Shown one piece after another: positions 9,727 through 28,560 of a stretch of 34,508 bases of DNA. The stretch's first letter is position 1, and every line of letters starts with the position of its first letter. The stretch lies in contig JAHWJI010000017.1 in assembly GCA_019348495.1 (NCBI GenBank), positions 1-34,508 on the forward strand. The letters are read 5' to 3'. The stretch is from Actinomycetota bacterium (GTDB lineage: Bacteria > Actinomycetota > Acidimicrobiia > Acidimicrobiales > CADCSY01). The notes under the pieces are model-generated. The model was not told the DNA's origin, did no database searches, and saw nothing but the letters and a program-made list of their open reading frames with translations. A program made the position numbers and the translations under genes.

Positions 9727-9806
9727 GGGCGCATGGTAGGTCGCCAGGAAGCCGTCCGCTCGGGCACAGCCCTCGCTGCCGTCGGCAAGGACCGTGACAG
9801 GCTTCG

Positions 9807-9822
9807 GCAACCTCCCGGAAAC
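9807..9822 (+). promoter_or_regulatory. Candidate GlnR/NnaR-type operator upstream of the NnaR-like gene
   Basis: GCAAC (9807-9811), six bases, GAAAC (9818-9822). GlnR-type sites in actinobacteria are built as pentamers of the gTnAC/GaAAC kind separated by six bases, giving AC dinucleotides 11 bases apart. The same CAAC-N6-GAAAC arrangement occurs between nirA and the dmsBC fusion. It lies 24 bases before the ATG of the regulator gene. Seen: the element and its recurrence. Inferred: binding by GlnR or by the NnaR-like protein. Confidence 0.4.
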
Positions 9823-9845
9823 CGTGGCTGGCAACACTGCGTCAC

Positions 9846-11003
9846 ATGGCTGCGGCGACCACGAGGGGGGCCGGCTCCCGTCCCCTGCTCGGCTTTCGGG
9901 TAGGGATCGCGGCCCACCGGGGCAGCCAGGAACAAGCCGACGCCCTGCGGCGCGCCGGGGCCGAACCCGTGGTCGGTGCGGTCCTGGGACCGGTGCCCTC
10001 GGCCCGGATCGAGGCCCTCGAAGCCGTCACCGAGGACCTGCTGGCCCGCCCACCCTCGGTCGTGGTCCTCACCTCGGCTGCGGGGATCGAGGGGTGGTTG
10101 GGCACGGCGGAGGGCGCCGGCCGGGGCTCCGCCCTGCGCGATGCGCTCGCCGGCGCCACGGTCCTGGCCCAAGGTGACGCCGCCGCAGCGTCCTCGGCCC
10201 TGGATGTGGCCGTGGCCGCCACGCTGCCCCCCGGGGGGGTGGAGGGTGGGGCCCAGCTCGCTCGCCTCACCGGGGGCCTCACCGGCGCCCGGGTGGCGGT
10301 CCAGGTCCAGGCCGGCCATCCCGCCGGTCAGGCGACGGCCGGCCTGGTCGCCGGCCTGGTCACGGCCGGGATCGACGTGGTGGACGTCGCCGTCCCCGTG
10401 GCGCCCCCGGCCGAGGACTCCCAGGCGGCGCTGCGCCTCCTCGAGGCGGTGGTCGAGCAACGGGTCGACGCCCTCACCTTCACCGCCCCCGACGAGGTGC
10501 GCGGCTTCGTGGCGCTGGCTGTGGGCGCCGGCGCCGGGAACGAGGCCCTGGCCGCCCTCAGCGGCGACGTGGTCCCTGCGTGCATGGGCCCGGCGTGCGC
10601 CCAGGTCGCCACCTCGGCCGGCTTCAGGGGCGTGATCCAGCCCGAGCGGGCCCGAGTGGGGGCCATGGTCGAGGTGTTGGGGGAGCAGTTGGGAACTGGC
10701 GTGGTGCGCTTGGAGCTGGGCGGTGTCGACGTGGTGATCCGGGGCGCGCTGGCCCTGGTGGACGACGAGGAGGTGTGGCTGGCCGACCGGGAGCGGGGCC
10801 TGCTGGAAGCCCTGGCCCGCCGGCCGGGCACGGTGGTGGCCAAGGCCGAGCTGCTGCGCCGGGTGTGGCGCTCCGACGGCATCGACGGGGCCGAGGCGCA
10901 CGCCGTGGAGGTGGCCGTCGCCCGGCTGCGCCGGCGTCTCGGGCCCGCCGGCGCCGGCCTGCAGACGGTGCCCCGTCGGGGCTACCGCCTGGTCTCGGGC
11001 TAG
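9846..11003 (+). CDS. NnaR-like regulator: HemD-like domain fused to OmpR-type winged helix
   Basis: 385 residues in two parts. Residues 12-270 form a uroporphyrinogen-III synthase (HemD)-like two-lobed domain, with GFRVGIAAHRGSQEQADALR, PPSVVVLTSAAGIEGWL, VDALTFTAPDEVRGFVALA and 'ACMGPACAQVATSAGF'. Residues about 290-385 form an OmpR/PhoB winged helix: LLEALARRPGTVVAKAELLR, HAVEVAVARLRRRLG and VPRRGYRLVSG. This architecture is that of NnaR, the actinobacterial regulator reported to act in nitrate/nitrite assimilation together with GlnR. Whether the HemD lobe is catalytic or a sensor is unsettled. The nitrate/nitrite genes in this window support the NnaR reading over a housekeeping HemD. Its TAG overlaps the stop of the convergent epimerase by four bases. 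Confidence 0.85.
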   Translation: MAAATTRGAGSRPLLGFRVGIAAHRGSQEQADALRRAGAEPVVGAVLGPVPSARIEALEAVTEDLLARPPSVVVLTSAAGIEGWLGTAEGAGRGSALRDALAGATVLAQGDAAAASSALDVAVAATLPPGGVEGGAQLARLTGGLTGARVAVQVQAGHPAGQATAGLVAGLVTAGIDVVDVAVPVAPPAEDSQAALRLLEAVVEQRVDALTFTAPDEVRGFVALAVGAGAGNEALAALSGDVVPACMGPACAQVATSAGFRGVIQPERARVGAMVEVLGEQLGTGVVRLELGGVDVVIRGALALVDDEEVWLADRERGLLEALARRPGTVVAKAELLRRVWRSDGIDGAEAHAVEVAVARLRRRLGPAGAGLQTVPRRGYRLVSG

Positions 11004-11929
11004 GCGGGAGGGTGTGGTCGGATCCCCCAGGTGCACCGGGCAGCCTCACCGGGCTCCAGCACTTGGAGGCCGAGGCCGTTGTGGTAGGCGTCGGGGGCAC
11101 AGGTCATGGGCTCGACGGCCAGGCCCCGGCGGCGCCGGGCCGGGGCCAGGGTGTCGCCGCTGAAGACCATCACATAGGCCAGGGCGCGGTCCATCCAGAC
11201 CGTCACCGCTGGCGTCCCCCCGGGCGCGGCCAACACGACGTGGCTGTGGCCGTCGTCGCGCTCCAGCCCGGTGAAGCAGGCATCGAGGCGAAGGTCTCCG
11301 ATGCGCTTGGGGGATCGAAAGTCCACGACCGTGCCCTCCACCGGCGAGACGGCGCCGGAGGGAATGCCCTGCTCGTCGACCTCCAGCCGGTTGGCGGCGG
11401 GCACGTGCAGCACCGCCTGGTCGACGGTGTCGGTCCCCACGGTGAAATAGGGATGGAACCCGGCGCCGAAGGGCAGCGGCCGGCCGCCGGCGTTCGTCGC
11501 GGTGGTGGCGACCGAGAGGCCACCGCGGCTGAGGCGGTACTCGATCACGAGCTCGAGGGTGAAGGGGTAGCCCGACTGGGGATGCACCACGAGGCCGACG
11601 ACGGCACGGTCGGCCTCGTGGTGGAGCACCTCCCAGTTGGCCCAGCGCACCAGCCCGTGCATGGCGCTTCCCCGGTCGGGCTCGAACGGGAGCTGGAGCT
11701 CGTCGTCGCCGAAGCGGTAGCGGCCGCCGGCCAACCGGTTGGGCCAGGGAGCGAGCACCTGGCCCCGCCCGCCGCTGCACATCTCCCCGGCCTCGTAGCC
11801 GTCGAGCACGGGTCGCCCGTCGACGGTGTAGCTGCGCAGGCTGCCCCCCACCTCGGTGACCACCACCCGCTGGTCGCCCCACGCCAGTTCCAACTGCCGG
11901 CCCGAAGGCAGCTCGGGTTCCCTTGTCAT
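11000..11929 (-). CDS. Aldose 1-epimerase family protein
   Basis: 309 residues, galactose-mutarotase-like beta-sandwich. It shows QVLAPWPNRLAGGRYRF, GSAMHGLVR (His91), the central GAGFHPYF (His159) and AVEPMTCAPDAY with Glu273, matching the substrate-binding His, catalytic His and catalytic Glu of the family. It interconverts alpha and beta anomers of aldoses such as glucose or galactose; the 'YihR/YphB' type within the family cannot be excluded, so the exact sugar is open. Cytoplasmic. Start ATG 11929, with GGGAGA just upstream on the coding strand after the complement is taken (weak site). It stands alone on its strand between the regulator and the Lon-domain protein. Confidence 0.85.
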   Translation of the reverse strand: MTREPELPSGRQLELAWGDQRVVVTEVGGSLRSYTVDGRPVLDGYEAGEMCSGGRGQVLAPWPNRLAGGRYRFGDDELQLPFEPDRGSAMHGLVRWANWEVLHHEADRAVVGLVVHPQSGYPFTLELVIEYRLSRGGLSVATTATNAGGRPLPFGAGFHPYFTVGTDTVDQAVLHVPAANRLEVDEQGIPSGAVSPVEGTVVDFRSPKRIGDLRLDACFTGLERDDGHSHVVLAAPGGTPAVTVWMDRALAYVMVFSGDTLAPARRRRGLAVEPMTCAPDAYHNGLGLQVLEPGEAARCTWGIRPHPPA

Positions 11930-12074
11930 GGGGAGATATTCTCGCCCAAAGGCAGACAGGCCAAGATCTCACCCGACGGACAGGTGACCCACCAGCCCCG
12001 ATCGTTCACGCGGCCGTGCTCGCTCACGGCTGACGTCTGACCCACCCGCCGGCCGCAGGGGCTGGTGCATCCGC

Positions 12075-12848
12075 TCACCGTGGCGGGCCGCCCAGAGGGT
12101 CGCCGCCCAGACGCTCGAGCACGGCGAGAGCTTGGTCCAGGGTGGCGACTTCCGTGATCTCCAAGGCGTCGTCGGCCCGGGAGGCCGCCTCTCCTCCCTG
12201 GCCGGCCGGCACCAACAGATGGTCGACACCGACCTGTCCCATGGCGACCGCCTTCAGGTCGACGCTGCCCACCGGGCCGACGTCCCCGTCCGGCTCGATG
12301 GTTCCGGTGACCCCGATGCCCCGCCCGCCGGTCAGCTCTCCTGCGGTCAGCAGGTCGAGGATGGCGAGGGTGAACGCCAGACCCGCCGAGTTCCCGTCCA
12401 CCCCGGCGGCACTGATGCCCACCGTGGCCCGCTCGTCCGGCTCCAGGCCCAGACGATCGAGACGGTGCAGGGCGACCGTGGTGGCCACGTCCCGGGAGTC
12501 CTCCATGTCACGCGCACGTACGTCGGCGCTGACGACGTCGTCGGGCTGCACCGTCTCGATGTTGCTGTCCAGCCAGGCTTGGAGCGCTCGAAACGGGCTC
12601 AGGGGATGGAAGGCGACCGTCGCCATGAGCACCTCACCGCTGGCTGGGAAGACCTCGCCTCCGGAGATGGTGATGTGCTCGTCGACGGGCCGGATGGGCC
12701 CGGGGCCGACGGAGTAGCCCGGGAGCGGGAGCCCGGCGCCGGCCAGGAAGACGAGGGAGCTGACCAGGAGCACCGTGTCCCATCTCGACCAGCGGCGCCT
12801 GAGCCGGGCCAAGGGGCCCCACCGGGCGAGAGCAGTCGTCCTGGACAC
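12075..12848 (-). CDS. YlbL-like membrane-anchored Lon-domain (S16) protein lacking PDZ
   Basis: 257 residues from GTG 12848. An N-terminal transmembrane helix (VLLVSSLVFLAGAGLPLPGY) is followed by a short 'SVGPGPIRPVDEHI' and GEVLMATVAFHPLSPF segment typical of YlbL. Then comes a Lon-type proteolytic domain with nucleophile Ser154 in VDGNSAGLAFTL and Lys199 in GSVDLKAVA, 45 residues apart as in Lon. Normal YlbL proteins (about 340 residues) have a PDZ domain between the M-x-x-S segment (DMEDSRD) and the Lon domain. Here the sequence passes from MEDSRD through a single helix into the Lon domain, so the PDZ is missing. It would act on the outer face of the membrane; its substrate is unknown. 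Confidence 0.75.
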   Translation of the reverse strand: MSRTTALARWGPLARLRRRWSRWDTVLLVSSLVFLAGAGLPLPGYSVGPGPIRPVDEHITISGGEVFPASGEVLMATVAFHPLSPFRALQAWLDSNIETVQPDDVVSADVRARDMEDSRDVATTVALHRLDRLGLEPDERATVGISAAGVDGNSAGLAFTLAILDLLTAGELTGGRGIGVTGTIEPDGDVGPVGSVDLKAVAMGQVGVDHLLVPAGQGGEAASRADDALEITEVATLDQALAVLERLGGDPLGGPPR

Positions 12849-13020
12849 CGCACCGTGCTATCTCAGGTGTCTGAGGCGGTCAATCGACCCCGACAGGGGT
12901 CTCGCAGCCCAGCCAGGCATGGGCGAAGCTCCCGCATCGATCATGACCGATGCCTCATGACAACGGGACGGTCAGGGGCGGACAGTGCGTGTCATGGACC
13001 GACACCAAAGGAGCCCGGAG

Positions 13021-13422
13021 ATGAGACGACGATTGCTGAAGGGAACACTGGCCTTCGCATCGGTGGTGGCCTTGGCCATCACCGGCTGCGGGGACGACCC
13101 GGCCGAGGTGGCCGGTGGGAATGCAGCTACGGAGGTGGCCGGCGACAGTACCGGCGGGGAGGCGCCCGGCGGCAACCTCGAGCGCTACTGCGAGCTGCAG
13201 CGTGCGCTCCAATCCGAGGGTGACGCCGAGAAGCTCGACGAGCTCGCCGCAGTCGCGCCTCCGGAGATCGCCCAAGAGGTCGGATCGGTCACCGAGGCCT
13301 ACAAGGTGGTGCTCGAGAGCGGCGACGAACACGCTGCTGAGGCAGTGGCGGAACAGGAGGCGGCGATGCATGCGTTCAACGAAGAGCGGTGCGGCATCCC
13401 GAACCCCCTGGAGGAGCAGTAG
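13021..13422 (+). CDS. Small secreted lipoprotein, function unknown
   Basis: 133 residues. Start ATG 13021 is set by an AAAGGAG ribosome site at 13007-13013. The signal peptide MRRRLLKGTLAFASVVALAI ends in lipobox ITGC, then a Gly/Ala/Thr linker. The mature part is acidic and helical: NLERYCELQRALQSEGDAEK, LAAVAPPEIAQEVGSVTEAY, VVLESGDEHAAEAVAEQEAA, and a second Cys in EERCGIPNP. The two mature Cys residues may form a disulfide that staples the ends of a helical bundle. The order Cys-helix, 'APPEIAQEV', Tyr helix, C-terminal Cys is repeated in the lipoprotein at 24113-24541. No domain name recognised. Confidence 0.75.
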   Translation: MRRRLLKGTLAFASVVALAITGCGDDPAEVAGGNAATEVAGDSTGGEAPGGNLERYCELQRALQSEGDAEKLDELAAVAPPEIAQEVGSVTEAYKVVLESGDEHAAEAVAEQEAAMHAFNEERCGIPNPLEEQ

Positions 13423-13474
13423 CGCACCTCCGTCGCCCGCCTCCCGGCCCGATCAACCTACGCTCACCGCTGTC

Positions 13475-13852
13475 ATGACCAAGGTCGGCGATGACCGGAC
13501 CGAGGGCCGGGCGGTGGGGCGGGCGACGGCCACCGGATGGCCGGTGGCTGCAGCGGTTGCCCTGGCGCTCGTACCGCTGACGATCTGGCTTGGCGTCCTG
13601 TCGGGGGCGTCCTTGTTCAGTCACGTGGCCATGAGCTGGTGCGGGCAGTGTGGTCCTCCCCACAACCGTCCACCGGGGTCGCCCGCATGGAACTGCGGAT
13701 CACCCCGGACGTGGGCTCGGGTCCGAGGCGGCACCGGCCGGCTCCCAGATCGCCTGACCCACTGCTATGCCAGCCCCGTCAGGGCCGGGCCCAAGCCAAG
13801 TTGGGCAGGCGGGCGGTCGCCACCCGGGTGCGCAGGTAGCACCACCAGGTGA
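13475..13852 (+). CDS. Possible small membrane protein; weak call
   Basis: The stretch 13423-13778 holds no clear gene. The best candidate starts at ATG 13475: a polar N-terminus, MTKVGDDRTEGRAVGRATAT, then one hydrophobic helix (GWPVAAAVALALVPLTIWLG) and SWCGQCGPP with a CxxC. Beyond that the sequence becomes Pro/Arg-rich and looks like random coding, and it runs into the convergent narK 3' end. It may be a decayed or frameshifted membrane protein whose first 60 residues remain. I see no ribosome site and no family match. Confidence 0.25.
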   Translation: MTKVGDDRTEGRAVGRATATGWPVAAAVALALVPLTIWLGVLSGASLFSHVAMSWCGQCGPPHNRPPGSPAWNCGSPRTWARVRGGTGRLPDRLTHCYASPVRAGPKPSWAGGRSPPGCAGSTTR

Positions 13853-15179
13853 GCACCATGCACGAGCCGTAGAAGGCGATGAACGAGATCAGCGCCGCCT
13901 GGGGACCGCCGGTGGCGTTGGTGGACCAGCCGAAGCTCTGGGGGATGAGGAACCCGCCGTAGGCGCCGATGGCCGAGATGATGCCGAGGGCCGCCGCGCT
14001 CTCCCGTCGACCGGCGGCAGCCACGGCCGACTGGTCGACGACAGCACCGGTCTCGCTCGCCTGGTGGGCCAGGTGGGCCCGGAAGATCACCGGCACCATG
14101 CGGAAGGTCGAGCCGTTGCCCACACCGGTGGCCACGAACAGCACCAGGAACATGGCCAGGAACCCGGCGAAGGCCCAGGAGCGCTCCTTGTTGGTCAGGA
14201 AGAACAGCACGCCCACCACCGCGCAAGCCATGACCCCGAAGTTGCACAGGGTGACCCGGGCACCGCCCAGGCGATCGGCCAACCAGCCCCCGATGGGCCG
14301 GGTGATGGAGCCCACCAGCGGGCCGAGGAAGGCGTACTTGATGGCGTTGGGGTCGGCGAACTGGCCCTTGATGAGCAGGGGCAGGCCGGCCGAGTAGCCG
14401 ATGAACGAGCCGAAGGTGCCCACGTAGAGCCACGACATGGTCCAGGTGTGCCGGCGACGGGCCACCACTGCCTGGTCCCGGAACGACGAGCGGGCGGTGG
14501 CCAGGTTGTCCATGAAGCGCCAGGCGCACAGGGCGGCGGCCACGATGAAGGGCATGAGCATGAGGCCGATGTTCTGGAGGTGCAGGGAGCCTGCGTGCCC
14601 TTGGCCGCCCCCCACCACGGCGATGGCGCCGGCGGTGACGGCGAAGGGGGCGACGAGCTGGAGGATGGCCACCCCGAGGTTGCCCCCGGCGGCGTTGAGG
14701 CCCAGGGCCAGGCCCTTGCGGGAGTTGGGATAGAAGAACGAGATGTTGGCCATGCTCGAGGCGAAGTTGCCACCGCCGAGCCCGGCGGTGGCCGCGGCCG
14801 CCAACAGCGCCCAGTACGGCGTCGACGGGTTGGCGACCATGACGGCCAGCAACGTCGTGGGGATCAACAGCAACAGGGCGCTGACGATGGTCCAGTTGCG
14901 TCCCCCGAAGCGGGGCACGGCGAAGGTGTAGGGGAAGCGCACGGTGGCGCCCACCAGGTTGGGCACGGCCACCAGGGTGAAGAGCTGACCCGACGAGAGG
15001 TGGAAGCCGGCGTCGTTGAGGCGGATGGCGACCACGCTCCAGGTGAGCCACACCGAGAAGCCCAGGAACTCGGCGAAGATCGACCACACCAGGTTGCGCC
15101 GGGCCACGCGCTGGCCGATCCCGGCCCAGAAGGCGTCGTCCTCGGGCTCCCACTGCTCGATCCAGCGGGAACGGGACAT
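13779..15179 (-). CDS. narK: NarK-family nitrate/nitrite transporter
   Basis: 466 residues from ATG 15179, one base after the nirA stop, so the two are co-transcribed. It is a major facilitator protein, with 12 helices expected. The two nitrate signature stretches are clear: GLGGGNFASSMANISFFYPN followed by 'RKGLALGLNAAGGNLGVA', and ATGVGNGSTFRMVPVIF. Arginines expected in helices 2 and 8 to hold the anion appear in ATVRFPYTF and GSITRPIGGWLADRLGG. It should bring nitrate in (and possibly export nitrite) for the cytoplasmic reductases encoded beside it. Longer ORF starts upstream lie within nirA and are rejected. Confidence 0.92.
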   Translation of the reverse strand: MSRSRWIEQWEPEDDAFWAGIGQRVARRNLVWSIFAEFLGFSVWLTWSVVAIRLNDAGFHLSSGQLFTLVAVPNLVGATVRFPYTFAVPRFGGRNWTIVSALLLLIPTTLLAVMVANPSTPYWALLAAAATAGLGGGNFASSMANISFFYPNSRKGLALGLNAAGGNLGVAILQLVAPFAVTAGAIAVVGGGQGHAGSLHLQNIGLMLMPFIVAAALCAWRFMDNLATARSSFRDQAVVARRRHTWTMSWLYVGTFGSFIGYSAGLPLLIKGQFADPNAIKYAFLGPLVGSITRPIGGWLADRLGGARVTLCNFGVMACAVVGVLFFLTNKERSWAFAGFLAMFLVLFVATGVGNGSTFRMVPVIFRAHLAHQASETGAVVDQSAVAAAGRRESAAALGIISAIGAYGGFLIPQSFGWSTNATGGPQAALISFIAFYGSCMVLTWWCYLRTRVATARLPNLAWARP

Positions 15180-15180
15180 C

Positions 15181-17157
15181 TCAGCTCGGCGCGTAGTTGC
15201 CGGCGGGGGCCGGCGGCAGGGTGGCGTCCACCTGGACCGCACCCTCGGTGACGGTGACGGGCAGACAGCGGACGGCCTCGTCGGTGGGCCCGGCCAGGGC
15301 CGCACCGGTGCGCACGTCGAAGGTGCCGCCGTGGTGAGGGCACTCCAGCGAGGCGCCCCGGAGGGTGCCGTCGCCGAGCGACGCCCCGGCGTGAGGGCAG
15401 GCGTCGGCCACGGCGCAGAAGGTGCCGTCGACGTTGGCCAGCGCGACAGGGGTGCCGCCGGCGTCGACGGTCGTGACCGCGCCCGGTGCCAGGTCGCTCA
15501 CCCGGGCCACGGCCACCGGTGCGGGTACACCGACCGCGGCCAGCTCAGGTTCGGGGCCCGTCGCCCAACGTCCGGCCATGACCGACTCGAGGTGACCGGC
15601 GAACGCGTCGTGGCCGATGCGGGCCACCGCCGGTCCCAGGCCCTCCCCCTCGTGGCGCATGGCCTCCCAGATCCCGACCACCGCCTCCACTGCGGCGGGG
15701 ACGTCTTCGGTCGCCACCCGTCCCACCACCTCGCCCACCCGTCCGGCACCGATGTCGGCGCCCAGGTAGAGGTGGTAGCCGTCGCGGGTGGCGCCGCCGA
15801 TGCGGACCTTGGAGCCGGCCAGGCCGATGTCGCCGGCCTGGTGCTGGGCGCAGGAGTTGGGGCAGCCCGACACGTGCACCCGCAGGGCGGAGTTGCGGCC
15901 GAGGGCGGCGCTGGACAACAGGGCCTTGCCGGCGTCGGGGGCGGTGGTGATGCCCAGGGCGCACACGGCCGAGCCCGTACAGGCCCGCACCGAGGCGGTG
16001 TGGGCCTCTCCGGCCAGGAACAGTCCTCGGGCCCGCAGCGCATCCCGCACGGTGGTGACGGCGGTCACCGCCACGCTGCGCAGCACCACGTTCTGGTCCC
16101 GGCTGAGGTTCAGGGCGCTGTCGCCGTGGCGGTCGGCCAGGTCGCACAACAACTCGAGCTCCGAGCCGTTGGTGTCGCCTAGGGGGATGTCGACGGTGAG
16201 CGTGGCCAGACCGGGCGTGCGTTGCGGCCGTACACCCGCCGACCACCCTCCCGGGGGGACGTGGGCGAGGATGGCCACCCGGTCGGCTTCGGGGAGCACC
16301 TCTATGGCGACGGGCGGCTCGTGGGGGCGGTCCCGGGCGGCGGCGAAGGCCTGATCCCAGGCGGCCCGGAAGGCGGCCTCGCCCAGACGCTCGACCACGA
16401 ACTTCATGCGGCCCTTGGCCGGCTTGTCCAGGTCGCCGTGGTCGACGAAGACCTCCACGAGAGCCTCGGCCGCGGCCACCACGTCGGCCCGGACAACGAA
16501 GTCAGCCACCTTGACGGCCAGGAACGGGGCCTTGCCCAGGCTGCCTCCCGCCCACAGCTCGTAGCCGGGCTCGCCGTCGCGCAGCACCGACACGAAGCCG
16601 GCGTCGTTGAGCCGGGCGTCGGTGCGGCACCGGGGCGAGCCGCCGAAGGCGACGTTGATGCGACTGGGCAGCACGCAGTTCAGCTCGGCCGAGCGGGCCA
16701 CGATGGCGTCGCTCACGGCCCGGGCGTCGGGCAGGCAGTCGAAGGGCTCGTCGAGGTTCGATCCGGCGTCCTCGGAGCACATGACGTTGCGCAGGGTGTG
16801 CCCGCAGCCCGAGCGGGTGGTCATGCCGATGCCGGACACGGCGTCGAGCAGGGCAGGCACCCTGGTGGCCTCCACCCAGTGCAGCTCGAAGTTCTGGCGG
16901 GTGGTGAGGTGCAGCCAGTCGGGCCCGAACGACCGGGAGATGCGGGCCAGGCCCCGGGCCTGGGGCGTAGGCAGGGCGCCACCGGGGTTGCGCACCCGGA
17001 TCATGAACACCCCCGGCTGCTCCTGGGTGCACACCCCCCAGGTCTTGAGGGCGTAGCGGTCCTCGGGGGACAGCCAGGCGTCGCCCTCGGCGCCCAGACG
17101 CTCGAGGTCGACGGGCAGGCCGGCGCGCTTGGCGGCGGGGATGTTCGGAGCAGCCAT
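15181..17157 (-). CDS. nirA: Sirohaem ferredoxin-type nitrite reductase with C-terminal Rieske domain
   Basis: 658 residues from ATG 17157. The nitrite/sulfite reductase core (about 1-540) has [20 protein letters not shown], '[15 protein letters not shown]', [19 protein letters not shown] and [12 protein letters not shown]. The sirohaem-[4Fe-4S] ligands are Cys393 and Cys399 ([12 protein letters not shown]) and Cys432/Cys436 ([17 protein letters not shown]). A Rieske domain (about 545-650) is fused at the C-terminus, with ligands Cys587/His589 ([11 protein letters not shown]) and Cys606/His609 ([10 protein letters not shown]), like NirD. It reduces nitrite to ammonium with six electrons. Sulfite reductase activity cannot be excluded from the core alone, but narK one base downstream and the divergent nitrate reductase genes favour nitrite. 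Confidence 0.9.
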
Positions 17158-17268
17158 GCCGGTGACCCTAAGAACCGGGTGTTGCCGGCGTGGACCCGGG
17201 GTGTTTCCATCGCACGACGGCTCGCGCACGGCCGGGGCGGGGCGACGAGAGGACTCCTTCACACGGTG

Positions 17269-17295
17269 GTCATCCGACGACAACGGCCGGGAAAC
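17269..17295 (+). promoter_or_regulatory. Candidate GlnR/NnaR-type operator between nirA and the dmsBC fusion
   Basis: Three pentamers at 11-base intervals: GTCAT (17269-17273), ACAAC (17280-17284) and GAAAC (17291-17295), each separated by six bases. The last two repeat the CAAC-N6-GAAAC element seen before the NnaR-like gene. The site lies in the 160-base divergent region, so it could control both nirA-narK and dmsBC-nitrate reductase. The element is seen; the binding protein is inferred. Confidence 0.45.
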
Positions 17296-17317
17296 GGCTG
17301 CTTCGTAGGTTTCCGGC
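17286..17317 (+). promoter_or_regulatory. Inverted repeat ending at the start codon of the dmsBC fusion
   Basis: GCCGGGAAAC (17286-17295) and GTTTCCGGC (17309-17317) form an inverted repeat with one bulged G and a 13-base loop. The right arm touches the GTG at 17318, and the left arm shares GAAAC with the candidate operator. It may be a protein site, or an RNA hairpin that hides the start region. Confidence 0.4.
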
Positions 17318-19030
17318 GTGGACCTCCTCACTGCCGACCCCGCCGCCACCGGCGACGGCGGGGCCGGTGGCGCAGGGGCCGGTGGCGCAGGGGCGCTGAC
17401 CCCCCTCGACTGGTACCTGGCCGACCAGGCCGATCTCAGCGCGGTGGAGCGCTTCTCCCGCCGCCACGACGCCCACGCGCTGCCCGTCCAGGCCCGCTAC
17501 TACCGCGACCTCATCCCCCTGGACCGGCCCGGCCCCGGCCAGCAGTACGGCTTCGAGGTCGACCTCGACGCCTGCACCGGGTGCAAGGCCTGCGTCACCG
17601 CCTGCCACGCCCTCAACGGCCTCGACGACGGCGAGTCGTGGCGGACGGTGGGGTCCGTGCACGTCGAGGTGGCCGAGCCCTTCCAACAGACGGTCACCGC
17701 CGCCTGCCATCACTGCGTCGAGCCCGCCTGCCTGGCCGGGTGCCCGGTCAACGCCTACGAGAAGGACCCGGCCACCGGCATCGTCACCCACCTGGACGAC
17801 CAGTGCATCGGGTGTCGCTACTGCGTGTTGACCTGCCCCTACGAGGTGCCCCGCTACAACCCGGAGCGGGGCATCGTGCGCAAGTGCGACCTGTGCGCCG
17901 ACCGCCTGGAGGCGGGCGAGGCCCCGGCGTGCGTGCAGTCGTGCCCCAACGCCGCCATCCGGGTGTCGGTCGTGGACACCGAGGCGGCCCGGGCCGCCGG
18001 CGCACCAGGTCAGCGCCTGGTTCCGGGCGCCCCCCTCTCGTCGATCACCGTGCCCACCACCAGATACACCAGCCGCCGGGTCAGCGACGGTCTGGTGGGC
18101 GGCGGGCCGGCCGCTGTGGCCCAGCCGCCCCAGCGGGGCCAGGCCCACGTCCCCCTCACCGTGATGTTGGTGCTGACCCAGGTGGCGGTGGGCACCTCGG
18201 TGGTGGGGCTGGGCTTGCGCTCCCTGGCCGGTACGCAGGTGGCCGAGGCCGTGCGCCCGGCCTCGGCCCTGGTGGCCCTGGCCGTGGGCCTGCTCGCCCT
18301 GGGCGCCAGCGTCTTGCACCTGGGCCGGCCCGCCTACGCCTTCCGGGCGGTGCTCGGCATCCGCCGGTCGTGGCTGAGCCGGGAGATCGTGGCCTTCACC
18401 GCCTTCGCCCTCCTGGCCTCCGGCCACGGCTGGGCCGTGCTGGCCGGCGCCGGCAGGGCCGAACCCGCCCTCGGTGCCGCCGCCGCCGCGGCCGGAGTGG
18501 TGGGCGTGGCCTGCTCGGCCCAGGTCTACGCCGTGACCCGCAGGCGGTGGTGGGCCCTGCCCCGGACCGCCCTGAAGTTCGCCCTCACCACCGTGGCCAC
18601 CGGCGCCGGCGGGGTGCTGGTCGTCTCGGTGGCCACCGCCCTGGCTCTGGGCCAGGGCCCCGTGGAGCGGGCCGGCCTGGTGTCGGGCCGGCCGCTCGGC
18701 GTCCTCGTGGCCACGGCGGTGGTGGCCAAGCTGGCCTGGGAGGCGGGCCTGCTGCGCCACCTCCGCTCCGGTGCTCCCGCCGAGCTGCAGCGCAGTGCCG
18801 TGCTTTTGGCCGGCGAGCTGGCCCCGTCGAGCCGGTGGCGGTTCGCCCTGGGCCTGGCCGGGGCGTCGGCCGCGCTGGCGGTGGCCCTGGGCGCAGGGGC
18901 GGTGGCATCGCCCATGGTCCTGGTGCTGGCCGTGGCCAGCTTCGCCGCCGTGGTCGGCGGAGAGCTGGTGGAGCGCTGGCAGTTCTTCACCGCGGTCGCT
19001 CCACCCTGCATGCCGTCGGCCCTCTCGTGA
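17318..19030 (+). CDS. Fused DmsB-DmsC protein: four-cluster ferredoxin subunit plus membrane anchor
   Basis: 570 residues. The N-terminal half is a DmsB/NrfC-like electron-transfer subunit with 16 Cys for four [4Fe-4S] clusters: [11 protein letters not shown] (86-96), [13 protein letters not shown] (130-142), [11 protein letters not shown] (163-173) and CDLC...CVQSC (190-209). The C-terminal half (about 280-565) is a hydrophobic DmsC-like anchor of about eight helices, normally the quinol-binding subunit. In most organisms these are two proteins. It would pass electrons from menaquinol to the molybdenum subunit encoded next, whose GTG overlaps this TGA. The start GTG 17318 has a poor ribosome site, and the first 27 residues are Gly/Ala repeats, so the exact start is uncertain; '[20 protein letters not shown]' is clearly inside. 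Confidence 0.88.
17360..17394 (+). repeat. 15-base tandem repeat in the 5' end of the dmsBC fusion
   Basis: The unit GGGGCCGGTGGCGCA occurs twice perfectly (17360-17374 and 17375-17389) with five more bases of a third copy. It encodes the Gly/Ala run near the N-terminus. Unit length is a multiple of three, so copy number could vary without breaking the frame. Confidence 0.85.
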
Positions 19031-21240
19031 GCAGGGGCCGTCGGTCCAACCTGTTCATGGCCCGAGCCGGCCGCCAGGGTGACGACCTGGCCCGTCGCCC
19101 CGGCGGCTTCGGCCTGGGCCAGGTACCGACCCGGCTGGCCCCCGAGGCGGTCACGTCCATGGTCTGTGGCTACTGCTCGGTGGGGTGCTCGCTCGACATT
19201 CACCTGCGTGACGGCCACGCCGTCAACCTGTCGCCCACCACCGAGTACCCGGTGAACCTGGGGATGGCCTGTCCCAAGGGCTGGGAGGCGCTGGCCCCGC
19301 TCGCCGCGCCCGACCGGGCCACCACGCCCCTGCGGCGCGACGACCGGGGACAGCTCCAGCCGGTGAGCTGGCCGGACGCCCTCGACACCTTCGTGGCCCG
19401 GTTCCGGGCCGTGCAGGCCGAGCACGGCCCGGCCTCGGTGGCCTTCTTGTCGACGGGCCAGATCCCCACCGAGGAGATGGCGCTGCTGGGGGCCGTGGCC
19501 AAGTTCGGCATGGGCGTGGTCCACGGCGACGGCAACACCCGCCAGTGCATGGCCACCTCGGTGGTGGCCTACAAGCAGGCCTTCGGCTTCGACGCGCCGC
19601 CCTACACCTACGCCGACCTCGAGTCCTCCGACGTGATCGTCCTGGTCGGCTCCAACGTCTGCATCGCCCACCCCATCTTGTGGGAGCGCATCTGTCGCAA
19701 CCCCCATGACCCCCAGATCGTGGTCATCGACCCCCGGGCCACAGAGACGGCGGTGGCCGCCACCCAGCACCTGGCCCTGGCCCCCAAGTCCGACCTGGTC
19801 CTGCTCTACGGCCTGGCCCGGGCCCTCGTCCAGCGGGGTGCGCTCGACCGGGCCTTCGTCGAGGCCCACACCACCGGCTTCGACGCCTTCGCCGCCCACG
19901 TGGCCCCCTTCACGCCCGAGCGGGTGGCCGAGGCCACGGGCCTGGCACCGGAGGCCCTGGAGAGCCTGGCCACGACCGTGGCCGAGGGCGAGCGGGTGTC
20001 GTTCTGGTGGACCATGGGCGTCAACCAGAGCCACGAGGGCGTGCTGGTGGCCCAGGCCATCATCAACCTGGCCCTGCTGACCGGCAGCATCGGCCGCCCC
20101 GGCACCGGCGCCAACTCCATCACCGGGCAGTGCAACGCCATGGGGTCGCGCCTGTTCTCCAACACCACCAACCTCTTCGGGGGACGCGACTTCGCCGACG
20201 CCGCCCACCGGGGCGAGGTGGCAGCCACCCTCGGCATCGATGACGGGTGCATCCCCGACCAGCCCAGCTGGGCCTACGACCAGATCGTGGAGGGCATCGC
20301 CACCGGCGACATCCGGGGCCTGTGGGTGGTGGCCACCAACTCGGCCCACTCCTGGGTCAACCACGGTGACCTGCACGACCTGCTGGGCAGACTCGACTTC
20401 CTCGTGGTCCAAGACCTCTACGCCACCACCGAGACGGCGCAGCGGGCCGACCTGGTGCTGCCCGCAGCCGGGTGGGGGGAGAAGGAGGGCACCTTCATCA
20501 ACTCCGAGCGCCGCATCGGCCTCATCAAGCGGGTGGCCCGGGCGCCGGGGCAGGCCCTGGCCGACTTCGCCATCTTCAAGCTGGTGGCCGAGGCCTGGGG
20601 TTGCGGTGAGCTGTTGGAGGCGTGGTCGTCACCGGAGGCCGTCTTCGAGATGCTGGGACGACTTTCCACCGGGCGCCCGTGCGACTTCAGCGGGGTGGGC
20701 GACTACGCCATGGTCGACGATCTCGGGGGGGTGCAGTGGCCCTTCCCGCCCGGATCGACGATGGTGCCCGGAGAGGAGCGACGCCTCTTCGCCGACGGCC
20801 GCTTCTTCCACCCCGACGGTCGGGCCCGGTTCTGCTTCGGCGAGCCCCGTCCCCCTCGGGAGGCCACCAGCCGGCGCTATCCCCTCGTGCTGCTCACCGG
20901 ACGGGGCAGCTCGGCCCAGTGGCACACCGAGACCCGCACGGCCAAGTCGGCCGTCCTGCGCACCCTGCACCCCCCGGGGCCCTACGTGGAGGTCAACGCC
21001 ATCGACGCCCAGGCTGGCGGCCTGGTGGCCGGCCAGTGGGCCGTGGTGTCCTCGGCCCGGGGCTCGATGCAGGCCCGGGTGGTGGTCACCACCGCGGTGG
21101 CCGCCGGCCAGGTCTTCGTGCCCATGCACGACGCCCAGGTGAACCGCCTCACCCACCCCAGCTTCGACCCCTCCTCCCGCCAGCCGTCCTACAAGCACTG
21201 CGCCGTGGCCGTGCGCCCCCTCGAGCACTGGGAGCACTGA
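19027..21240 (+). CDS. Molybdopterin nitrate reductase catalytic subunit (NasC/NarB type)
   Basis: 737 residues from GTG 19027, overlapping the previous stop as GTGA. The N-terminal [4Fe-4S] ligands are Cys47, Cys50, Cys54 ([15 protein letters not shown]) and Cys82 (GMACPKGW). The Mo ligand is Cys174 in [20 protein letters not shown], the position typical of assimilatory/periplasmic nitrate reductases. Cofactor-binding stretches include [18 protein letters not shown], '[20 protein letters not shown]', QNCNAMG-like [13 protein letters not shown] and [20 protein letters not shown]. The C-terminal domain has [20 protein letters not shown]. No Tat signal is visible, so it is probably cytoplasmic, fitting assimilation; formate dehydrogenase is less likely because the Mo ligand is Cys and narK/nirA are beside it. 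Electron donor: the dmsBC fusion (inferred). Confidence 0.88.
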
Positions 21241-24670: not shown

Positions 24671-24892
24671 ATGGTGCGAGTGGAGCCGGTGACGCTCGCC
24701 TGGGCTCAGGCGCTGGCCCAGGGCGACGATGTGTTCGCGGAGCGCTTCGGCGTGCCCGTAGAGCCGGGCTGGTCGGGGTTCCCCGAGGTGATCCCCCGCC
24801 TGGGCGAGGCGATCGCCGACGGTCGACCCACGGTGTGGGGATCCCTACAGGAGCGTCAGATGTCCTTGGCCATGTTGGCGAAGCGGGTGTAG
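24671..24892 (+). pseudogene. Truncated GNAT-like acetyltransferase remnant
   Basis: From ATG 24671 the first 57 residues read like the N-terminus of a GNAT-family protein: VTLAWAQALAQGDDVFAERF, 'GVPVEPGWSGFPEVIPRLGE' and RPTVWGS. The acetyl-CoA-binding part is missing: beyond about 24841 the frame enters the convergent 3' end of dnaB and stops at 24892. I read it as the stump of a gene cut when dnaB came to lie next to it. The GNAT assignment rests on resemblance of the PGW-x-x-FPE segment and is moderate. Confidence 0.5.
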
Positions 24893-27800
24893 TGGTCGAG
24901 GAAGGCCAGGCGGTCCATCCCGGTGGGCCCCGAGCGGTGCTTGGCCACCAGCACCTCGGCGGTGCCCCGGTCGGGTGATTCAGGGTGGTACAGCTCGTCG
25001 CGGTACAAGAACACGACCACGTCGGCGTCCTGCTCGAGACTGTTCTCCACGACGATGCCGTTGGCCACGAAGTTGTGGGTCTCGGCCACGGTGGCGTCGT
25101 AGACAGGCCGTTCGCCCAACGAGTCGATGGCCACGACCGGGTCCCAACGGACATCGGCCCGGGCCCGGCGGTCGAGGGCGGCATCGTCGAGGGCGGCCGC
25201 CACCTGGGCCAGGCGATGGCGGCTGGGTGGGGCCACACCCTGCCCCGCGCCCTGGCCGGCGAGGGCCATGGCGCCGGCCATGAGCTCGCCGAACCGCCGG
25301 CTGCTCTCGTCACCCTCGATGCTCAGCCGTGCCCGCCCGACCGCCGCGTTCGACCCCAGTCGCACGACACGACTGTGGACCTCCAGGCGCAACAGCAGGG
25401 TCTGCAAGTCGTCGATCAGGCGGCTGCTGGCCGAGACGCAGTGCGGGCGGGGCCGATGTCCATGGTGGCTGACGCCGTCGCCATGGGGCCATACCGCAGC
25501 CAGGAACGCCACCAGGGCGTCGTCGGGCAGGGAGAAGATGGCTCGGGGCACCACCGGGCAGTCGGCGGGGAGACGGTCCGTTGCCTCGACCACCTCTCGT
25601 GCCGCCTCCCGCACCTCCGCCACCGCCCACTCGCAGCGCCGGGTGGGAGCGGGCAGGCGTCGGGGGACGGCCACACGGGTACCGATCGCCAGCTCGTCGA
25701 GGCGGAGCCAGCCGCCGACGGTGAGGAACGGGTGGTTGGCGCTGGCGTCGATGCGCCGGCCCGATCCGAGCCGGAGCCGGTAGACCGGCTTGGTCCCACT
25801 GGCGAAGACGTGGGACATGGTGCCGGCCACAAGGGCCAGGTCGCGGTCGACGGTCCACACCGGGATGTCCCGCTCCCCGCTGAGCAGCAGCTCACCCATG
25901 GTGACCTCGGCTCCGGTGTCGGCCCGCAGCACCCGGGCATCGGCGGTGAGGCAGCCGCTCTCACGCAGGTCGGCGAGCATGGGGCGCTTGTCGGCCCGTA
26001 GCTCCAGGCCACGGGAGAGCTGGGAGAGGGCGACCACGGGCGTCTGCAGCTCCCGGGCCAGGACCTTGAGCCCCCGGCTGATCTCCGACACCTCCACCTG
26101 ACGGTTCTCGGCACGATCGCGTCCGGTCATGAGTTGGAGGTAGTCGACGACCACGATGCCGAGGTCGCCCAACCTCGACTTGAGCCGTCGGGCCTTGGCC
26201 CGGATCTCCAGCACCGTCGCCCTCGGGTTGTCGTCGATGTAGAGGGGCGCCTCGGCCAGACGGCCGATGGCGTGGCTGATCTTGGTCCAGTCGGACTCGG
26301 CCAGCCTGCCGTTGCGCATGCGGGTGCTGTCGACCCGGGCTTCGGAGGCGAGGAGCCGCTGGGTGATCTCCAGGTGGCTCATCTCCAGGGAGAAGAACAG
26401 CACCGGGCGGTGGGCCTCGAGGGCAGCGTGGGCGGCCATGCCCAGGGCGAAGGCGGTGTTGTGCACGAAGACGTCGGCGGCCACGAAGTTGTGATCGCCG
26501 GGCACGGTCAGGTCGTACACCTGGGCCGGGCCGTCGTCGTCGATGGCCACGACCTCGTCCCACAGCACGCTCGTGGGCGCCGGCGCGCAGGGGGCATCGG
26601 TGCTGTCCCGAGCGGCCGGCCTCCGGCCCGCCGGGGTGCGGTGGGGCGCGCCTGGCCCCGCCGGCGAAGCCGCGTGGGCCAGCGCTCTGGGGGCCTGGCT
26701 GGCTCGGCGTTGCCGGTGGTCGAGCTGATCGATGTGGGCCAGAAGGTTGGCCAGCGCCGAGTCCTTGGAGAACATGCCGATCTCGGTGGCGAGGTGGCGC
26801 AGCTCGGGTACGGAGGTCACCTCCAGCTCGTGCGCCGGGCCGCTCCATCCCTGGCGGTGGATGACGCGCCGGCGCCGGCGGGCGTTGATGCCGAAGCGCA
26901 ACAGCAGGTGGGCGACGTCGGCCACGAGCTCCCCTGATCGGCTGCAGTAGGAGACGTAGGCGGTGCCCCCCTGCCTGGTGGACCACCACAGGGAGCCGTC
27001 GACGCCCAGCAATCGGTTCAAGAACAGCGCCACCTGGCGCCGGGGCAGGCGGAACACCCACTCGGGGACCGAACGCCGGTGGGGGCTCGTGCCCATCAAA
27101 CCGTGGCCACCCAGGACGTGGTGCCAGGGGTCGGACCGGTCGGCGGGCGGGTGGAGGCGACAGGTCGATACACCGGGCACGCTGCGTTCGGTCACGGCCT
27201 CGACCTCGACCTGGCGGGCGTGGTGGGCCAGGTCGTCGATCACCGCCGGGGAGGTGGCGGTGAAGCGCACCGAGGCGCCGGTGTGGGCCCCGTCGCTGAG
27301 GAGGTAGGCGAGCAGTACGATCTCGGCTCGGGGCCGGGCCTCGTTGCCGAAGACCGGCAGCACCCGGGGGACGGCGACGGGGGTGCCCACGGCCACCTCG
27401 GCCAATGGCCGCCAGCCCGTCGGCGTGAGGAAGGGATGGGCGGCGGTGGTGCGCACCTCGCGTCCCAGCCTGGTGCGCACCCGGAACACCGGGCGCACCC
27501 CGTCGTCGACGAAGGCGTTCGGGCGCCGTACGTGCAGGCCGTGATCAGCGGCGCCGAGACTGGTGACCTCGACGTGGTCCCCCCGTCGGCCCCGGCGGTA
27601 CACCTCGGCCAGGGTGACGCGGGCGCCGGTTCGGGGCTCGACGAGCAGGGTGTCGCCGGTCAGGCACTTGCCGGTGGCGGGGCGCGCGCCCACGATCACC
27701 AGGCTCGAGGGCTGTAGCCCGGAGAGCAGCTCGTCGAAGCCCCGGTAGCCGGTGGGAACCCCCGTGATGCTGTCGGCCTTCTCGTAGAGCATCTCCAGGC

Positions 27801-28341
27801 GGGTGAGGGTGTGGTCGAGGAGGTCGCGAATGGGCGCCATGGTGTCGCTGACCCGGTGCTGGGCGACGTCGAAGACCATGGCCTCGGCCCGGTCGACGGC
27901 CTCGGCCACGTCGTCGGGCACCCGGTAGCCCATCTCGGCGATCTCGCCGGCCACGGCGATGAGGCGGCGCAGGAGAGCGTGCTCGCCCACGATGCGGGCG
28001 TAGCGGGCGGCGCTGGAGGTGGCCGGCGTGCGCACCTGGAGGGACACGAGCAGTCCCGGTCCCCCGATGTCGCCGAGCAGGCCGGCCCGGCGCAGCTCCT
28101 CACCCACCGTCACCGGGTCGGCCGGCTCGCCGGCGCCGTAGAGCGAGAGGATGGCGTCGAAGATGTGGCCGTGCACCGGCTTGTAGAAGTCCTCGGACGA
28201 GACCCCCAGCTCGGAGGCAGCCACGATGGCGTCTTTGCTCAACAACATGGCCCCCAGCAGGGACTCCTCGGCTTCGAGGTTGTAGGGGGGGACCCGACCG
28301 TCACCCCGCTGGGGACCGGGAGGAACCTCAGCGACGGCCAT
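24856..28341 (-). CDS. dnaB: Replicative DNA helicase DnaB containing two inteins
   Basis: 1161-residue precursor. Start ATG 28341 is set by an AAGGAGG ribosome site eight bases upstream; the longer ORF is rejected. The extein parts are residues 1-225, 629-796 and 1101-1161. Together they make a 454-residue DnaB: an N-terminal DnaG-binding domain (PYNLEAEESLLGAMLLSKDA) and a RecA-like ATPase with Walker A GARPATGK/TAF, Walker B IVVVDYLQLM, and DLRESG/SLEQDADVVVFLYR. DnaB is the hexameric helicase that unwinds the fork. Intein 1 splits the Walker A motif between Lys and Thr, so the helicase is inactive until spliced; intein 2 splits the later conserved RESG/SLEQ motif. The gene follows rplI in the usual actinobacterial order, with a 240-base gap. 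Confidence 0.95.
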   Translation of the reverse strand: MAVAEVPPGPQRGDGRVPPYNLEAEESLLGAMLLSKDAIVAASELGVSSEDFYKPVHGHIFDAILSLYGAGEPADPVTVGEELRRAGLLGDIGGPGLLVSLQVRTPATSSAARYARIVGEHALLRRLIAVAGEIAEMGYRVPDDVAEAVDRAEAMVFDVAQHRVSDTMAPIRDLLDHTLTRLEMLYEKADSITGVPTGYRGFDELLSGLQPSSLVIVGARPATGKCLTGDTLLVEPRTGARVTLAEVYRRGRRGDHVEVTSLGAADHGLHVRRPNAFVDDGVRPVFRVRTRLGREVRTTAAHPFLTPTGWRPLAEVAVGTPVAVPRVLPVFGNEARPRAEIVLLAYLLSDGAHTGASVRFTATSPAVIDDLAHHARQVEVEAVTERSVPGVSTCRLHPPADRSDPWHHVLGGHGLMGTSPHRRSVPEWVFRLPRRQVALFLNRLLGVDGSLWWSTRQGGTAYVSYCSRSGELVADVAHLLLRFGINARRRRRVIHRQGWSGPAHELEVTSVPELRHLATEIGMFSKDSALANLLAHIDQLDHRQRRASQAPRALAHAASPAGPGAPHRTPAGRRPAARDSTDAPCAPAPTSVLWDEVVAIDDDGPAQVYDLTVPGDHNFVAADVFVHNTAFALGMAAHAALEAHRPVLFFSLEMSHLEITQRLLASEARVDSTRMRNGRLAESDWTKISHAIGRLAEAPLYIDDNPRATVLEIRAKARRLKSRLGDLGIVVVDYLQLMTGRDRAENRQVEVSEISRGLKVLARELQTPVVALSQLSRGLELRADKRPMLADLRESGCLTADARVLRADTGAEVTMGELLLSGERDIPVWTVDRDLALVAGTMSHVFASGTKPVYRLRLGSGRRIDASANHPFLTVGGWLRLDELAIGTRVAVPRRLPAPTRRCEWAVAEVREAAREVVEATDRLPADCPVVPRAIFSLPDDALVAFLAAVWPHGDGVSHHGHRPRPHCVSASSRLIDDLQTLLLRLEVHSRVVRLGSNAAVGRARLSIEGDESSRRFGELMAGAMALAGQGAGQGVAPPSRHRLAQVAAALDDAALDRRARADVRWDPVVAIDSLGERPVYDATVAETHNFVANGIVVENSLEQDADVVVFLYRDELYHPESPDRGTAEVLVAKHRSGPTGMDRLAFLDHYTRFANMAKDI
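25042..25953 (-). other. Intein 2 of DnaB (304 aa), eroded endonuclease domain
   Basis: Begins with Cys (CLTADARVLRADTG) after DLRESG and ends GIVVEN before Ser of SLEQDAD. Block B is IDASANHPFLT with its His, block F is RPVYDATVAETHNFVA. The last two residues are Glu-Asn, not the usual His-Asn. A LAGLIDADG-type second motif survives in altered form (LVAFLAAVWPHGDG), but the first motif found in full inteins of this kind is absent, so homing activity is probably lost. The insertion site is the one used by the Synechocystis DnaB intein (RESG/SIEQ). Splicing should join RESG to SLEQ. Confidence 0.9.
26458..27666 (-). other. Intein 1 of DnaB (403 aa) with homing endonuclease core, in the P-loop
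   Basis: Begins with Cys (CLTGDTLLVEPRTG) after GARPATGK and ends ADVFVHN before Thr of TAFALG. Block B is EVRTTAAHPFLT, block F is AQVYDLTVPGDHNFVA, block G is DVFVHN. Between them lies a DOD/LAGLIDADG endonuclease with both motifs and both acidic residues: LLAYLLSDG (Asp125) and LFLNRLLGVDGSL (Asp223), followed by YCSRSGELVADVAHLLLRFG. A Pro/Ala-rich linker of about 45 residues (around 320-365) precedes the C-terminal splicing part. It looks complete and may still be able to home. Confidence 0.92.
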
Positions 28342-28411
28342 GCGTGGAGCCTCCTTCGTCGGGCCTGTGCGGTGCCAGGGGAACAACGCTGTGAATTGAG
28401 GGTGGACCGCA

Positions 28412-28420
28412 TGTGGACAA
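28412..28420 (-). promoter_or_regulatory. DnaA-box-like 9-mer upstream of dnaB
   Basis: On the minus strand the sequence is TTGTCCACA, the form of DnaA box preferred in high-GC actinobacteria. It lies 71 bases upstream of the dnaB ATG. A single box in an otherwise GC-rich gap suggests DnaA might regulate dnaB transcription; one 9-mer can also arise by chance. Confidence 0.45.
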
Positions 28421-28560
28421 CCGCCCTGCGTTCTCTTCGAGCCGCGCCGGGGCCCGAAGGGCTGCGAGCTGTCTCCAAGGTCCACGAGAAGCCAGCTTGA
28501 CGCCCGAGAGGCGATCGCTGGTGGACTACTGCGGTGATGTCACCGGGGCCTGGCGGGGGA

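Follow-up and report, generated by a model that had tools for sequence, protein, structure and literature searches.

The described GlnR box reads gTnAc-n6-GaAAc and is set in an a-b-a-b array whose consensus varies between genera; nnaR, nirA, nasA, glnA, glnII and amtB are known GlnR targets (PMC10704036). In Mycobacterium, a GlnR box stands beside an NnaR palindrome at nitrate genes that appear to be leaderless (PMC6277429), the published NnaR motif being the palindrome CTCAC-N16-18-GTGAG (PMC6277429, PMC11162112). We found no paper on GlnR in Acidimicrobiia in the open-access literature. Here, we analysed a stretch of 34,508 nucleotides (the window) from an uncultured family of this class, in which short elements of GlnR-box build precede an nnaR-like gene (site 1) and the nasB-nasC genes (site 2). 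With a probability of about 0.9, both elements would be GlnR binding sites; GlnR would activate nnaR and nasB-nasC from them, and nirA-narK and the glnA/amtB genes from arrays of their own.

The features of the locus are collected in Table 1. Probably, nirA and narK form one operon with a shared transcript; in the NirA-type reductase, a Rieske domain forms the C-terminal part of the same chain. To judge by their sequences, the DmsB-DmsC fusion is the probable electron-transfer and anchor subunit of a nitrate reductase and the NasC-like protein a probable assimilatory nitrate reductase. The nnaR-like product has the HemD domain fused to an OmpR-type winged helix and the proximity to nitrate genes that characterise NnaR (best model NF005568, 224 bits, below the cut-off of 273). 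Elsewhere in the window, a long minus-strand open reading frame (24856-28485) reads, from the list of open reading frames, like a DnaB replicative helicase with two intein-like insertions.

Table 1. Coordinates of the features discussed (window positions, except for the GlnR ortholog, which lies on contig C117).
Feature	Position	Strand	Details
Weak phased half-sites above site 1	9785-9789, 9796-9800		GCAAG, GACAG
Site 1	9807-9822	+	GCAAC-CTCCCG-GAAAC (GCAAC-N6-GAAAC), GlnR-type half-site pair before nnaR
-10-like hexamer AACACT	9833-9838	+	10 nt after GAAAC, 7 nt before ATG 9846; putative function
nnaR-like gene	9846-11003	+	HemD domain and OmpR-type winged helix; Pfam HEM4 4.6e-20, Trans_reg_C 5.7e-16
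narK-like nitrate/nitrite transporter	13779-15179	-	TIGR00886 328.7 bits, above cut-off; directly after nirA, likely start 15179
nirA-like nitrite/sulfite reductase	15181-17157	-	NirA family NF007126 1.8e-70, below cut-off
Third array, for divergent nirA	17165-17218	-	GAAAC-N6-GGTCC-N6-GCAAC-N10-TAGGGT-N7-ATG; GAAAC 17203-17207, GCAAC 17181-17185, TAGGGT 17165-17170, ATG at 17157
Conserved block CGCAC-N17-GAGAG	17225-17251		Between nirA and nasB arrays; other strand CTCTC-N17-GTGCG; tentative NnaR site
Site 2	17258-17295	+	TTCAC-N6-GTCAT-N6-ACAAC-N6-GAAAC, full four-half-site GlnR-type array before nasB/nasC; TTCAC 17258-17262, GTCAT 17269-17273, core ACAAC-GGCCGG-GAAAC 17280-17295
-10-like hexamer TAGGTT	17306-17311	+	10 nt after GAAAC, 6 nt before GTG 17318; putative function
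DmsB-DmsC fusion (nasB)	17318-19030	+	Pfam Fer4_11 and DmsC; TIGR02951 below cut-off
nasC-like molybdopterin oxidoreductase	19057-21240	+	NasA/NasC models 1e-120 to 1e-135, below cut-offs
GlnR ortholog	C117:50451-51128		Directly downstream of glnA2; best PDB matches are actinobacterial GlnR chains

The sequence-only reading had placed a pentamer-N6-pentamer element of GlnR-box build at each site, with GTCAT 11 nt upstream of the second core, and all of this was recovered to the base. On the coding strand, each site has at least two pentamers at 6-nt spacing, two of them clear at site 1; the extra phased half-site TTCAC makes site 2 an array of four half-sites at 11-nt steps. The last pentamer is GAAAC-like at both sites and GCAAC at nirA. 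The published a-site GTnAC next to the b-site is replaced by nCAAC, here and across the order, so that the box differs from the textbook sequence, and we treat this third pentamer as a lineage variant of the GlnR box. An inverted repeat at site 2 (GGAAAC-N13-GTTTCC), seen by eye, was not kept in the relatives compared and was dropped as a functional feature.

Downstream of the half-sites, the spacing to the start codons suggests that nnaR and nasB-nasC have the layout of leaderless promoters, with the last half-site in the -35 position; before nnaR, nACACT is found at identical spacing in five relatives. The same leaderless-type layout recurs on the minus strand at the nirA promoter. These two sites had been taken for the only nitrogen-controlled promoter regions of the window, which is wrong because divergent nirA carries a third array of its own. 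The distance from the last half-site to the -10 hexamer is 10 nt at the nitrogen promoters of the window and at amtB1, amtB2 and an orphan regulator gene elsewhere in the genome.

The strict string CAAC-N6-GAAAC is found 4 times in the 2.21-Mb genome, base composition predicting 3.7, and its total frequency is therefore at chance. Two of the four copies lie in the 34.5-kb window (P about 0.0014, for a pattern itself defined from these two). The third, an independent copy (C117:52572), stands in the gap that separates glnA2 from a divergent gene, which is truncated at the contig end and reads like the start of glnA1. This copy is closely alike to site 1, both sharing CTTCGGCAAC-N6-GAAACC. The fourth is inside a sigma-factor-like open reading frame. 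Three of the four are thus at nitrogen promoters. For the two copies outside the window, the probability of one landing in the 150 bp before any one of five other nitrogen genes is ~7e-4. The result that would have told against a shared regulator, a random frequency with no bias to nitrogen genes, was found for the total count but not for the placement. By our own count, 19 of the 40 matches in the family are at nitrogen promoters (11 genomes, G003 left out), and a reversed control string gave 9 matches in all in the same genomes; G003, with 12 matches vs 12 control matches, is uninformative. As a genome-wide marker, the strict string is weak and was not retained: it misses amtB1, amtB2 and nirA and matches coding sequences too.

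We then used profiles from relatives to rank the sites. Profile R1 was trained on eight boxes, all from glnA/glnII and amtB genes of relatives, so that neither the window nor any nitrate gene contributed sequence to it. Across the genome, its first two ranks were site 2 (E 1.2e-6) and amtB1 (5.8e-6), followed at ranks 3-5 by the orphan regulator gene before amtB1 (0.028), glnA1 (0.033) and site 1 (0.089), ranks 6-9 being in or near unrelated genes. With profile R2 (21 sites from relatives, source genome excluded), the six best matches were nitrogen promoters (2.7e-8 to 0.0049), and the next match followed at E 0.155; site 2 was at rank 1 (2.7e-8) and the nirA array at rank 2 (E 2.8e-5). R1 is the stricter test, since the six promoters of R2 include some that are homologous to its training genes. 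A weight matrix of the R1 sites, applied to 68,910 window positions, gave its three highest scores to site 2, site 1 and the nirA array. Site 2 scored 43 bits, vs 14.7 for the best of 60 random windows; site 1 scored 8.6 bits, a value reached by the best match in 15 of the 60, and being no better than the chance best in a quarter of random windows it draws its support from position, spacing and conservation. Weak, probably chance, matches to the box profile were also seen inside coding sequence of the source genome (C83:67-3677 and C145:5890-7694; L218, L220, L221), in genes for very long, acidic proteins with asparagine- and glycine-rich repeats.

Conservation was followed in the family and beyond. 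The site 1 element and its -10 hexamer are kept before nnaR in five relatives (G002, G004, G005, G006, G008), and with one change in G007. In the nirA/nasB intergenic region of five genomes, the half-sites of both arrays are near letter-for-letter identical and the spacers variable. Across 61 NnaR loci, R2 also matched just before nnaR in other Acidimicrobiia, in Streptomyces netropsis and in a Frankiaceae MAG. An order-level scan outside the family (E 5e-4 or better; genes named by sequence, not all Pfam-scanned) gave 13 matches, ten of them before glnA (6), glnII (2), amtB (1) or nnaR (1), one before an NMT1-like binding-protein gene and two before genes with no known nitrogen link.

At the glutamine synthetase and ammonium-transporter genes, where a nitrogen regulator would be expected to leave the same motif, the strict element was found before glnA1 and a variant box before amtB1 (GTAAC-N6-AGAAC-N6-GAAAT-N10-TACGTT), relatives having the strict form at both genes. 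The amtB2 box of the source genome reads TTCAC-N6-GAAAC-N6-GAAAC-N10-CAGCCT. The same type of array precedes amtB or glnK-amtB in G004, G005, G008, G009 and G010, and glnA or glnII in G000 (the source genome), G001, G002 and G011. Before amtB1, we also observed a gene for an orphan winged-helix protein of 170 aa that lacks a receiver domain (G000 C153:5219-5731; L215 980-1492, minus strand), which has its own leaderless GlnR-type array (TTCAC-N6-GAAAC-N6-GCAAC-N10-TAGGTT-N8-ATG). The orphan gene with its own box also occurs in G001 (L254) and G004 (L098), and the same gene lies upstream in G005, G008 and G009; from its array, this protein may be a second regulator under GlnR.

The genome contains ten OmpR-type winged-helix genes, one of which encodes a GlnR ortholog: an OmpR-family protein with a degenerate receiver (Pfam detects Trans_reg_C only, no receiver domain) and a GlnR-type winged helix. 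Its best PDB match is 8hih (4.4e-44), with 8hig and 8hml also matched, and its recognition helix, RTVDVHVRRLRAKLG, reads as in 8hih. The ortholog is found in 11 of 12 family genomes at 79-96% identity. In the remaining genome (G010, a 90%-complete assembly), the amtB-type box is kept and the search for GlnR returned only 42% paralogs.

Altogether, GlnR control of the nitrate locus is well supported by what can be read in the DNA itself, namely the elements, how they are phased, spaced and conserved, where they lie in the genome, and the presence of a GlnR ortholog. For GlnR binding, the direction of control, the transcription starts and the NnaR step, we infer the following scheme. GlnR monomers would bind head-to-tail to pentamers repeated every 11 bp, the last pentamer (GAAAC; GCAAC at nirA) standing in for the -35 region, with exactly 10 nt between it and the -10 hexamer. 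When nitrogen is short, GlnR would recruit RNA polymerase and switch on nnaR, nasB-nasC and the divergent nirA-narK pair, whose transcripts appear to start with the start codon. Its further targets outside the window would be glnA1, amtB1, amtB2 and the gene for the orphan winged-helix protein that precedes amtB1. NnaR would in turn be controlled by GlnR and serve as a co-activator of the nitrate genes via a separate site.

Such a site may be the block between the nirA and nasB arrays, through which NnaR could act with GlnR at the nitrate promoters, a reading compatible with the GlnR explanation that we hold as possible, at a little under even odds. The block lies just upstream of the GlnR array and is kept in five genomes (the spacer being one base shorter in the other four), its halves are each about one base from the published NnaR halves with a spacing within the published range, and an NnaR site is found beside a GlnR box in Streptomyces and Mycobacterium (PMC6277429). 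Against it, the string is too loosely defined to be judged by a genome scan, and the block was not found before nnaR in the source family. By eye, a similar block was noticed before nnaR at two loci of other Acidimicrobiia (L136, L147). The published palindrome itself, with up to two mismatches, has five matches in the window, fewer than chance, and none at these promoters. More tentatively, one can picture a two-tier Acidimicrobiales circuit, in which GlnR boxes with the lineage-specific nCAAC pentamer would drive glnA and amtB together with two orphan winged-helix regulators, NnaR and the undescribed 170-aa protein, and these two regulators would fine-tune nitrate and ammonium genes via their own sites, one of which could be the block between the nirA and nasB arrays.

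The locus had also been assigned to GlnR and/or the NnaR-like protein, with NnaR possibly controlling itself. The GlnR part of this proposal stands, on the box, the ortholog, the profile ranks and the conservation; the part in which NnaR would bind the same element, and would thereby govern the nitrate genes as well as nnaR, is not supported, and we regard it as improbable. Both sites do precede NnaR-linked genes, the nnaR promoters are conserved in NnaR-bearing relatives, and NnaR, too, is an OmpR-type winged-helix protein. However, its recognition helix (HAVEVAVARLRRRLG) differs from that of GlnR, and the published palindrome (PMC6277429) is unlike the 11-bp repeat and has no close copy at these promoters. 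The element also stands before glnA1 and before amtB and glnII of relatives, including two genomes (G001, G011) without a HemD-type NnaR, where the best matches are a lone HemD or a lone winged helix. Because both genomes keep GlnR and the box at glnII/glnA, the element is best explained by GlnR, and we rejected NnaR-only binding as the main explanation.

Just as unlikely is the reading in which the 11-bp repeats are bound mainly by another OmpR-family regulator (MtrA-, PhoP- or RegX3-like). In favour of such a paralog, the TTCAC-N6-TTCAC part at glnA resembles a PHO box. Several such paralogs are present in the genome and their boxes resemble GlnR boxes (PMC6277429); in other actinobacteria, MtrA and PhoP bind repeats that overlap or are almost the same (PMC6277429). 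Yet the strong genome-wide matches are at nitrogen genes, with none at phosphate or cell-wall targets, and it is the GlnR gene that adjoins the glnA box. Finally, chance recurrence of a short string, to which the strict-string total and the insignificance of site 1 alone in the profile scan would point, is scarcely credible and was rejected, being contradicted by cross-species conservation as well as by placement, phasing, the constant distance to the -10 hexamer and the ranks in the independent profile scans.

Since the same sites precede the ammonium-uptake and glutamine-making genes of this genome and are met again across the order, the elements very probably belong to a known control system in a further group, an uncultured Acidimicrobiia family where it is apparently undescribed. 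This would extend a well-studied nitrogen control to a large, mostly uncultured class. The details that appear to be new are the nCAAC third pentamer, the leaderless-type nitrate promoters, the nirA array and the putative second, orphan regulator. The box model (TTCAC-N6-TTCAC or GTnAC-N6-nCAAC-N6-GAAAC-N10-TAnnnT) is usable for finding nitrogen genes in unannotated genomes. An nnaR step under GlnR, known from Streptomyces and Mycobacterium, is suggested to predate the split of these classes.

Compared with the GlnR regulon of Streptomyces coelicolor (PMC10704036), the system shares the pentamer-N6-pentamer build with 11-bp steps, the same target genes, and a GlnR with a degenerate receiver and a matching recognition helix. 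It differs in that the third pentamer is nCAAC and not GTnAC, glnR lies directly downstream of glnA2, the nitrate promoters look leaderless and nasB-nasC is a DmsBC-type unit. With respect to Mycobacterium smegmatis (PMC6277429), the NnaR motif is only loosely matched here, the gene order and the nitrate reductase type differ, and the nitrite reductase is of NirA type, not NirBD. Like in M. smegmatis (PMC6277429), nnaR has a GlnR box, the box is near the start of apparently leaderless nitrate genes, and a possible NnaR palindrome is found beside the GlnR box.
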